A stretch of 64,000 nucleotides of DNA. Source: Kofleriaceae bacterium (lineage in GTDB: Bacteria; Myxococcota_A; Polyangia; Haliangiales; Haliangiaceae). A program made the position numbers and the translations under genes. Below are positions 2,227 through 24,604 of this stretch, piece by piece. The notes beneath the pieces are model-generated. The model had not been told where the DNA came from, made no database searches, and saw only the letters and a program-made list of their open reading frames with translations. The stretch's first letter is position 1, and each line of letters starts with the position of its first letter. The DNA lies in the NCBI GenBank assembly GCA_024762925.1, contig JANTGM010000004.1, positions 62,001-126,000 on the forward strand. The letters run 5' to 3'.

Positions 2227-5200
2227 CTAGCCGATCGTTGTCCCTAGGTGGGCACGAACCGCGAAGTAGTCCTCGGAAATCGAGTAGAGAACGAGCTCTT
2301 TGATTTTGTCCTTCACTTGCGGGCCACCGACAAGCACAGGCTCCATAGAAACCATCTTCGAAGCCACCTCAAGATCACCCGAGATAACAAAGCCTGTGCG
2401 ATGAGCAGTTGCTTCCACCGCATTGCCCCACTTGGCTAGGTTGATCTCAGGGGCATTCTGCATGAAGCGATTCACAACCATTCCGAGCTGCTCAAGCCAC
2501 TGCGGCTGAATGCGTTTCTGCATCTCGGGGAGATACTGCTGCACCACTGGCCGCATGTCGTTGGGGATTGGGAAATCCGCTTTGACCATGGCAATCGCCG
2601 ACAAGAATGCTGTCTTGAGCTCGGTGTTGGTAGGAAGTGCCAGTTTGAGGTAGTGACCACCGCGCATGAAGCTGAGCCAGCGGCCAGCGGCAAATGCGAT
2701 CTCTTTCTCAGGACGTCCCTGAAGAAGGTTGGCGTAAATCACGAAGGAAGGAATGAGTTGGCCCTTCTCGTGTGCATTGGCAACTGCCACCTCACCCTGC
2801 TTATCAGGCTGAAGATAGACATCTGGCATTGGCACTTGCAGGACTTGCCCGGTGTAGTGGAACACCTTCGAGAACTGCAATTGATCGGTCTCGATCACCC
2901 GGCGGTCCTTGCGACGAAGCCCAAATGCCTTGTGAGGCTGAGCGCGGATCATTGCAGCCCCCTGCCAGATAGCGTCAAAGATCGCGCCTACATAGGGGTT
3001 TTCATCTGGGTGGTAGACCTTGCGCCAAGTATCCTCCGTCATGCGCGACTTGGCCTTCACAAAGCCACGAGGCTTGTACTGCTCATAGAACTGCAGTTCG
3101 TCCTCATCGGCCTTCTTGAGAAAGGCCAACGTGTTGCAGATGCACCAGGTCTTATCGTACTGGTGCGTGTCCATATAGATACGGCGAAGCGCCTTATAGC
3201 TGTCGTACTTGAAGGGCTCGTCCTTGAGCATCAGCATGTGCTGCTCTACAGCCTTGTCCGCCTGGTCTGGCCCTGAGAGCACGTAGAGCTCGGCCAGAAT
3301 CTCGCGACGACCCGTGTTGGCCGGATCGAGCTGCTGTGCAACCTCGTAGGCCGCGATGGCGCTTGAGTAGGCCTTAAGGCGAGAGCGATAAATCTCACCG
3401 AGTGCACCCCATAGGTCGATCAGAATCTTGTCGCCATGTTTGAGGCGTTTGATCATCCTGCGGTATGCGCGCTCTTGGTTCTTCCAATCACGCTTCGTGG
3501 TGAGAATCTTATCGATATCGGCGAACGCCTTGAGCGCACGAGGTAAGAACTTTTCTGGAATGGAGTTCGAGCCATCTACAAAGAATGCATCGAGTGCAGC
3601 ATCGTAGAACTCGATTGCCTCATCCAGAGCCTTGAGCTTGTCGCGACAGATCGTACCCGCCGCTTGCAGGTACGAACCTTTGCGCAGACCTTCCTCTTGC
3701 TCAATGAAGCGTTGGATGGTTTCAACAGCGTTCTTCCACTGCTCAGTCTCGGTGTAAAGGTCAAGAAGGCGCTGTAGTAGCGTTCGGTCGTCGGGAATGA
3801 GATCGAGAGCTTCCAACACAGCAGAAATCGCTTTCTGCGGATTGCCTAGCTTGCCCGCATAGACCTCAGCGATATCCGAGAGAAGAGCGATTTGCTCTTC
3901 CTGGCTGGCACTGGCCAATAGACCGCGCTTGGCTTGAATGACCTCTTCATAGTCGCCCTGCGCCTCTTGGATGGCGATGACAGCCAGCAAGGTGTCGCGG
4001 TGGTTTGGATCGATCTCCAGAGCCTTCTCAAACATGTTGAGTGCCTTGCGGCGCTCACTGAGGTTCTGCCGAACCATGCCGAGTCGGAAATATGTCCGAA
4101 CAACCTGCGCCTCGTCCTGCGAGTCGCGATGCTGAACCAAGATAGTCTGGTAAATCTTGCCAGCGCCATCCCAATCTTGCATCGAGTAGAGCAAGTCGCC
4201 TCGCCCTTCAAGCACAGGAAGATAGGTCGAATCGAGGTCGTAGGCCGCCTTGTAAAACTCGAGGGCACGTTCGTTGTTTCCAAGTTCTCCCGAGCAGCGA
4301 GCCGTTCGATAGTAGAGCTGCATGAGCTGGTCGGAGTCGAGGTTGCGTTGTGGAGCCTTGCGAACCAGCATGTCGAGCACAGGAGCCAACGGCTGCCAAT
4401 CGCCCGCAGCAAAGTAGAGGTCGGCCAATGGATCGCCCGCTTCAACATGCTCGGGATCAAGTGCCAGCACGGCAGCAAAGTGTTCCTTTGCATTCTCAGG
4501 CTGCCCAAGTCTCGTGAGGTAGATGTTCGCTGCATCGTTGAGCAGGCGTACTTTCTCGAGCATGTTTTGGGTATGCCCCTCAGCACGTACCATCATCTGC
4601 GCAGCCTTGAGCCAATCCCCTCGATCGGCGTAGAGCTTGACCAGTTCCTCCATCGTAGGAACATGCGACTCGTCGATTGTGAGCGCGTATAGGAACTGCT
4701 GCTCCGCTTCCTCAGACTGTCCAAGTCGGGCGTAGGTGATACGGCCGATGCGGTAGTAGAGGTCGGTTTGCTGCTCGGGCACGTCGGTTGTGCGAACAAG
4801 CTGCGTCATTACATCGATTGCTCGATCCCACTCCTCGATACGTTCGTACAAACGCCCAAGGGCATCAAGCGCACGCGGCTCATCGGGGTCGAATGTGAGC
4901 ACATCGGTGTAGGCCTCGATCGAACGATCAAAGTCAGATAGTTGCGCCTCGTACACCTCACCCATGGCGCAGTAGAGCTGAATTCGCTCGTGCTGATCCT
5001 GACTCGCCATGATGTGATTGCGATAGGTGTCGACGAGAGAGTCCCAACGCTGCTCTTGGTAGTAGAGACGCGCGAGTTCTTGGTAGGCACCGAAGTTGCG
5101 TTCATCGAGAGCCACGATTCGCTCGTAGCACTCGGCTGCACGATCGAGCTTTCCAAAGCGTTCTTCCCAGGCCGACGACATTCGCTCATAGAGAGAGATT

Positions 5201-22945: not shown

Positions 22946-24604
22946 TTAGTTGGCGCCCTTAACCGGGCATTTTGAACGAACGCGGAATCGGTAAAAACCA
23001 AGCTCGTCCTTCCAGTACTCTCCATTAAACTTCCACATGAAGTGCTCATCGTCAATGACAATCGGCTCAAGGCGATTGTTGCCTGAGATTTGCTGACCGC
23101 GAGCAGAAGCGGAAACCTGACCTGCTTTGTTCTCTAGAGTCTCGAGCTTGATCTTCAAGCCATCACGGCTAAGTTCCCGTAGCTCTTTGTTAAGACGCTC
23201 AATTCGCTCGCGAGCCAGCTTTCCTGCATCAGCTTCAGCCAGTGACTGCTGAACCGTGAGTTCTTGGAGAACTTCGGCGGAAATTGAGGTGGTTTGCCAA
23301 GCCTTGTCAGCTCGCTCAAGCATCTTGAGTTCTTTGTTGAGCTCGTCGACCCACGCAAAGGTCTTTCGAAGTGTCTTGTCTCCAAGCACTGATAGCACCA
23401 GACGCTGTGTCGCATCGGGAAGTCCCGCTTTGGCCTTGAGCACTTTCTTGACGTACTCGTAGAACTCGGCATTGTCCTCGTACTTGCCAAGCATCTCATC
23501 GAGGTCTTTGCGAAGTGGTCGGTAGAGATCGTCGTACTCAGCCACAGCAGCCAGGGCGCGATCATACTGGCAGTACTTGTAGTAGATGACCGACTTGAGA
23601 AGAACCGACTCAGGGAAGAACTGGTCTTCGAAGTACGGCGCGTTGAGCGTGTGGATGTTACCCAGCGCCTTGGAGTTGTTGGTCTTCATGAAATACGCCC
23701 AAGATGCCTCGAAAAGAGAGGGCAACCAATCGGGAGATTTCTGAGTCAACTTCTCGTAGTACTTAATGGAAGTATCAAACTGCTGAGTTGAGTAGAAGAC
23801 GCGAGCGAGTTGTAGCCAAGCAAGTTCTTGGAACTGATCAACATCGTCTTTAGAGTAGTATTTAGGCCGCTCTTCGGCGATCACAAGAATGTCTTTAAAC
23901 GCGGCAACAGCAGGCTTGCCCTTGAACTGGCGGACATACGTCACACCTTCGAAGAACTTGGCCTTGACGAAGAATGGGTCTTCTTTGCTAACGCTTTGGA
24001 ACAAAGTGATCGCTTGCTCGAAGTCGGCTTGGCGGTAGAAGTGGCGACCGAGAAGGAAGTACAGCTCGTTGCGTACTTCCTCCATCACTGGCTCTTCCAG
24101 GCTAGATGGATCGTATTGGCCGATCTTCTCGAGGATTCCTGAGGTCTCGGGAAGAACGCGGCTAAGTGCGGCGAGCCACTTGAGCGTCACCCCATAATAG
24201 AGGTGGCCGGTACCCAGTTCGACGATTCGATCGAAGTAGGCAAGCGAGGCTGCGTAGTAGCCCATTTGATAGAGCGTCTTGCCCATGAAGAACTCGGCGC
24301 GCTGCTTGTTTGCGGGCGAGTCCTCAGTTTCTCCATTGATGACTTTCGCGAACTCAATGGAGGCCGAGTCGTAGTCCTTCTTGTTGTAGAGCTTGGTAGC
24401 CCGCTGCAATGTTTTGGTCGGAGGAGTTGTGTCCTCTGGCGGCTTTGCATTCTTGGTCTTCGTGGTCTCGACCTCGTCTTCTTCGAAGGTCATCTCCTCA
24501 TCGCCTTGGGCGTGGGCTGTACCTCCGAAAACACCCGGGAATACCGATCCGGACATGAGGGCAAATGGAATTAGAGCGAGTAGCCAGTTTCTTGTTGGAC
24601 GCAT
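22946..24604 (-). CDS. gltC: Exported TPR protein, GltC-like
   Basis: The product has 552 residues. A signal peptide (1-32, cleavage at AHA-QG) is followed by an acidic/Lys-rich segment and then TPR repeats from about 60 to 400 (LYNKKDYDSASIEFAKVING, FFMGKTLYQMGYYAASLAYF). A coiled-coil stretch follows (about 400-490, ELNKELKMLERADKAW). The end is distinctive: FMWKFNGEYWKDELGFYRFR followed by VRSKCPVKGAN. A W.F.GEYW.DELG..R...S.C ending is what I recall for the GltC family of gliding proteins, which acts in the periplasm. AGAGG lies just before the ATG. It is the first gene of the minus-strand Glt-like series and divergent from the Cys-rich lipoprotein gene. Confidence 0.68.
   Translation of the reverse strand: MRPTRNWLLALIPFALMSGSVFPGVFGGTAHAQGDEEMTFEEDEVETTKTKNAKPPEDTTPPTKTLQRATKLYNKKDYDSASIEFAKVINGETEDSPANKQRAEFFMGKTLYQMGYYAASLAYFDRIVELGTGHLYYGVTLKWLAALSRVLPETSGILEKIGQYDPSSLEEPVMEEVRNELYFLLGRHFYRQADFEQAITLFQSVSKEDPFFVKAKFFEGVTYVRQFKGKPAVAAFKDILVIAEERPKYYSKDDVDQFQELAWLQLARVFYSTQQFDTSIKYYEKLTQKSPDWLPSLFEASWAYFMKTNNSKALGNIHTLNAPYFEDQFFPESVLLKSVIYYKYCQYDRALAAVAEYDDLYRPLRKDLDEMLGKYEDNAEFYEYVKKVLKAKAGLPDATQRLVLSVLGDKTLRKTFAWVDELNKELKMLERADKAWQTTSISAEVLQELTVQQSLAEADAGKLARERIERLNKELRELSRDGLKIKLETLENKAGQVSASARGQQISGNNRLEPIVIDDEHFMWKFNGEYWKDELGFYRFRVRSKCPVKGAN

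Follow-up and report, generated by a model that had tools for sequence, protein, structure and literature searches.

A probable Agl-Glt gliding gene cluster with an unlinked motor in a Kofleriaceae-related myxobacterium

The Glt gene set and its closest described relatives

The Glt machine, most of which is encoded at this locus, spans the cell envelope and enables myxobacteria to glide over surfaces. The best described counterpart of the locus is the Agl-Glt system of M. xanthus (clusters G1 and G2, motor locus M1; Luciano et al. 2011, PMC3169522), in which the motor is unlinked from the glt clusters. There AglR contacts GltG, and the Glt and Agl proteins drive gliding while Nfs and Agl drive the winding of the spore coat (PMC3169522, PMC3858216). 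Two further systems are related to it, namely the paralogous A-H set encoded by nfsA-H, which uses the same type of motor (PMC3858216), and a core complex of gltC, D, E and G with aglRQS found in Gammaproteobacteria and others, which has ancestral parts in common with the locus.

Comparison of these systems with the window, the whole 64,000-nucleotide stretch of DNA analysed here, reveals the closest likeness to Agl-Glt: GltC, D, E, F, G and I are shared and agree in length, domains and export signals, and the D-E-F-G-I gene order, the unlinked motor and the MglA/MglB pair are shared as well. The layouts differ in several points. In the window, gltC forms part of the same cluster as D-I, whereas in M. 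xanthus it lies with gltA/gltB; a TPR lipoprotein is encoded between gltG and gltI; gltJ does not adjoin gltI, the cluster lacks gltH, and the gltA/gltB-like genes lie on another contig. Nfs, in contrast, lacks GltI and GltJ, and its gene order is approached in this genome on contig C19 and not in the window. The core complex has a relative in a cluster on contig C7, but its motor is linked, while the window cluster has no motor gene in it or beside it, none being hidden elsewhere in the window, and thus does not fit that layout.

The cluster consists of seven open reading frames on the minus strand, running from 24604 down to 2227 (552, 1151, 431, 111, 721, 293 and 3921 aa) and encoding in this order GltC, GltD, GltE, GltF/CglF, GltG, the TPR lipoprotein and GltI (Table 1). 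The co-directional set of seven, the FHA/TonB-like protein and the small exported protein named in the original prediction were all recovered; its three exported TPR proteins proved to be four (552, 1151, 431 and 293 aa), the last two of which carry lipoboxes.

Table 1. Coordinates of the glt cluster, its flank and the two candidate motor operons.
Feature	Position	Strand	Description
gltC	22946..24604	-	552 aa, exported TPR protein; NCBIfam NF033756 (gliding_GltC) 321.7 bits, E 1e-95 (cut-off 450)
gltD-like	19232..22687	-	1151 aa, exported TPR protein; assigned by position, length, homology to the C19 GltD-like gene (160 bits) and syntenic orthologues in relatives
gltE	17916..19211	-	431 aa, TPR lipoprotein, lipobox VPAC; NF033758 (gliding_GltE) 98.8 bits, residues 12-362 (cut-off 225)
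gltF / cglF	17449..17784	-	111 aa, exported; NF033764 (gliding_CglF) 72.2 bits over nearly the whole profile (cut-off 90)
gltG	15185..17350	-	721 aa; cytosolic FHA, transmembrane helices, TonB-like AgmX/PglI tail; NF033760 (gliding_GltG) 353.1 bits, full length (cut-off 650)
TPR lipoprotein	14172..15053	-	293 aa with lipobox LAAC; kept between gltG and gltI in relatives; candidate for the AgmV slot
gltI	2227..13992	-	3921 aa, cytosolic TPR giant without signal sequence; relatives encode giants of 3356-4216 aa at the syntenic position
GltI conserved C-terminal domain	2230..3225	-	Alignment of 13 sequences, which share 30-66% identity with the window protein
Flank: rplS, trmD, rimM, KH-type RNA-binding gene, rpsP	25865..28815	-	Outside the machine; rplS, trmD and rimM (those tested) also upstream of gltC in relatives
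Motor operon, contig C28	L047: 9546-11553		TolQ-TolR-TolR, 210/230/192 aa
Motor operon, contig C16	L046: 9368-11210		TolQ-TolR-TolR, 215/165/204 aa

The NCBIfam matches of GltC, GltE, CglF and GltG each cover most of the protein and go far beyond a generic TPR resemblance, although all four scores (322, 99, 72 and 353 bits) lie under the curated cut-offs (450, 225, 90 and 650). These cut-offs are strict, since none of the 189 sampled genomes of the phylum passes the one for GltG, though 182 have some match. The architecture of GltG was further supported by its FHA domain (Pfam E 8e-18) and by its tail, which stays below the Pfam cut-off for a TonB-like C-terminus but exceeds that of the AgmX/PglI model NF033768 (90.5 bits, cut-off 40). 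For GltD, GltI and the lipoprotein, searches of Pfam and NCBIfam returned generic TPR models only, with no match to a dedicated GltD family, and GltD and GltI were assigned by size, position and homology; the M. xanthus counterparts measure 1191 and 4132 aa (PMC3169522). The cluster thus displays the GltG architecture, GltC, E and F, a GltD of about 1,200 residues ahead of gltE and a GltI of about 4,000 residues. The predicted identity as a Glt core (GltC, D, E, G and I) is accordingly upheld by family models, gene order and the parts found genome-wide, and the cluster is a standard, well-conserved version of a known machine.

The domain of about 300 residues that closes GltI is found throughout the phylum and belongs to no Pfam family, and its PDB match is confined to TPR at the domain start. 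A degenerate-looking motif seen by eye had raised a pseudo-metallopeptidase reading of this domain, which was dropped because neither Pfam nor PDB gave a sequence match in support of it and the single-sequence AlphaFold model was unusable (pLDDT 33.5).

Conservation of the block and of the lipoprotein between gltG and gltI

Of 56 relatives, 55 have a homologue of the window GltC, in most cases a strong one (88-36% identity; 87% in the closest full-length named relative). The order gltC-D-E-F-G-lipoprotein-gltI recurs in the same family, in other orders and in other classes, with trmD and rplS preceding it in many cases, which amounts to a recurrent Myxococcota layout in which the glt order follows rpsP-rimM-trmD-rplS. 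The exact arrangement C-D-E-F-G-lipoprotein-I was present at 36 of the 79 loci from named genomes, and of the remainder most either run into a contig or flank end or break off after G. Comparison with one close relative gave dN/dS values of 0.06-0.20 for six genes, indicating purifying selection, these ratios being approximate because synonymous sites are near saturation. Taken together, the recurring order and the low ratios argue that the glt block is intact and inherited as a unit; judged from the sequences, chance does not account for the arrangement of the cluster. The Glt transducer is therefore to be seen as a conserved rplS-gltC-D-E-F-G-lipoprotein-gltI block across much of Myxococcota, from which M. 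xanthus, with gltC split off, represents a different layout. Beyond the ribosomal flank, a divergent gene at 29110-30822 with multihaem cytochrome-like CxxCH motifs is kept upstream of rpsP in relatives.

The lipoprotein shares in this conservation. It occupies the position between gltG and gltI at about 40 of the 79 named loci, including every locus at which gltI is visible (gltI without the lipoprotein, 0 of 79), and its dN/dS of 0.056 points to a constraint equal to that on GltC. Inspection by eye showed a hydrophobic N-terminal signal and then a cysteine in almost all of its orthologues; a strict pattern caught 19 of 47. Its slot corresponds to the interval of agmV in M. xanthus (MXAN_4864/65), a gene hit by transposons in gliding screens and set aside in 2011 as a likely pseudogene, the protein of which was later reported in outer-membrane vesicles together with CglB and AgmO (PMC4158809). 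We tentatively propose, at somewhat less than even likelihood, that the lipoprotein may be AgmV, equated here by gene position, and that it could represent a core gliding component left out of the inventory for M. xanthus; anchored in the outer membrane, it would then connect the periplasmic TPR proteins with the parts of the machine located there. As an extra conserved lipoprotein absent from the accepted Glt parts list, it is a candidate to test in gliding. Separately, a search of the whole genome did not find the outer-membrane exchange receptor TraA (20 bits only) and gave no match to TraB above the cut-off, which makes M. xanthus-like sharing of lipoproteins between cells unlikely.

Motors and other parts encoded elsewhere

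The original prediction had rightly seen that GltJ and the AglRQS motor are absent from the cluster, and its guess of a distant motor proved well founded: the genome, a fragmented assembly of 246 contigs, encodes 11 TolQ/ExbB proteins, two of which lie in TolQ-TolR-TolR operons with the AglRQS layout, both on other contigs (C28 and C16; Table 1). The two outcomes that would have spoken against the original prediction, family matches limited to generic TPR and a genome without an AglRQS-like motor, were both checked for and neither occurred. The membrane Asp is kept in every TolR-like subunit of the two operons, and in a tree both of their TolQ proteins group in one clade with glt-adjacent motors from outgroup loci, among them those of Oligoflexales, and the nine remaining TolQ/ExbB proteins lie outside it. 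The implied oddity of a missing local motor did not hold up, as this is the normal state, the M. xanthus motor being likewise unlinked from the glt clusters; no motor was seen next to a window-type cluster in any of the relatives whose cluster was examined.

Between the two operons, C28 is the most likely partner of the window cluster as judged from its distribution among relatives, in a small number of cases. One genome (G003) combines the glt cluster with a C28-type motor and has no C16-type, and a reduced genome without GltC (G033) keeps only a C16-type fragment. Two others (G032 and G034) have a C28-type motor but lack a window-type GltC, a combination that would make sense if the C28 type also serves Nfs-like machines. 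Both operon types stand back to back in genomes of three other families (G051, G043 and G046; loci L275:6607-12395, L276:2794-8803 and L277:8276-12771), and two of these three loci contain duplicated TolQ-like genes. On C16, a HEAT-repeat lipoprotein gene directly follows the motor operon (L046:11361-13268) and is kept there in two relatives (L279, L281).

Genome-wide searches for the remaining parts, which the original prediction had recommended for gltJ and gltA/B, recovered candidates that are all unlinked to the window cluster. Two GltJ-like proteins with a Zn ribbon, a GYF domain and an AgmX tail were found on contigs C1 and C5 (107 and 69 bits, cut-off 450), giving two candidates for GltJ. 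Contig C13 carries a tandem pair of OMP_myx_plus barrels above the cut-off, which are likely to be GltA/GltB. Its assignment to the window system draws on outgroup loci: the pair is the best match for the barrels adjoining gltC in most of those with a Glt-type cluster, several loci have gltC-adjoining barrels closer to it than to those of the second, C19 cluster, and the barrels of most motor-linked outgroup clusters are closer to C19. C142 carries neighbouring genes for MglA and MglB, and MglA matches its M. xanthus counterpart over the full length (352 bits). A candidate GltH-type protein, a CglE-like barrel, lies within the C19 cluster (40 bits, cut-off 70), and no GltH was found for the window cluster.

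The C19 cluster (L050:8095-19200) follows an nfsA-H-like order of two barrels, GltC-, D-, E-, F- and G-like proteins, a lipoprotein and the CglE-like barrel; its GltG-like protein lacks the FHA domain and its extra lipoprotein has 272 aa. A third set on C7 (L227:2269-12095) has the composition B-C-D-E-G-like without F and I and adjoins an obg-like GTPase gene. In three relatives from the class (L291, L292, L295) a C7-type cluster encloses a motor operon, which is the published layout of the core complex. Because one genome combines two AglRQS-type motors with several machines of the Glt type, which motor drives which machine becomes a testable question.

Gliding and rival explanations

We consider it highly probable that the window cluster supplies the Agl-Glt gliding machine of this Kofleriaceae-related myxobacterium with its parts in the inner membrane, periplasm and cytosol, and that the machine is served by an unlinked motor; gliding is the best reading because GltI, a GltJ candidate and MglA/B are present. 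According to published descriptions, GltI is a scaffold that couples motors to an MreB-associated track and GltJ acts as an effector of MglA (PMC13104615, PMC12288465). By analogy with M. xanthus, from which the interactions, the gliding function and the choice of motor are all carried over, the motor, a proton-driven TolQ-TolR-TolR complex whose genes lie on another contig, most likely C28, would contact GltG in the inner membrane, while GltI would serve as a cytosolic scaffold together with the unlinked GltJ and the MglA polarity switch. The periplasmic GltD, GltE, GltF and GltC would pass force to the outer-membrane barrels GltA/GltB encoded on C13, and the complex would thereby travel along the cell, pushing on the surface.

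The same design need not serve gliding, as the use of Agl-Nfs in sporulation demonstrates (PMC3858216), and a genome with several Glt/Nfs-type clusters and two AglRQS-type motors leaves room for a Glt-type transducer with another job, such as moving a surface polymer or a spore coat. We regard this as unlikely for the window cluster, which has GltI in a genome with GltJ-like proteins, both being absent from Nfs. The cluster has no A, B or H, and an Nfs identity was rejected in favour of C19 as the better Nfs-like candidate. Less likely still is an ancestral device for transport or adhesion that non-gliding members of the phylum use in predation. The cluster does extend to a metagenome-assembled genome of Lujinxingiaceae (Bradymonadales; L169), and to our knowledge gliding has not been documented in some cluster-bearing lineages, that family among them. 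The present genome, however, has MglA/MglB and GltJ-like proteins, which in M. xanthus tie the machine to polarity control. That GltD, GltI and the lipoprotein match generic TPR models could suggest unrelated TPR proteins that happen to resemble Glt, a reading with almost no probability left, refuted by the near full-length GltC, GltG and CglF matches and the phylum-wide gene order.

GltG-type genes also occur apart from these clusters. A second FHA-type GltG, scoring 910 bits against the window protein, lies on contig C158 outside any visible glt cluster (L053:9517-12069), followed by an amidase-like gene and then cut by the contig end, and another genome (G036) likewise has a second FHA-type GltG (L285:9963-12263). 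On contig C157, a putative lipoprotein carries two or three tandem GltG-type C-terminal domains without FHA (L052:7004-8488).
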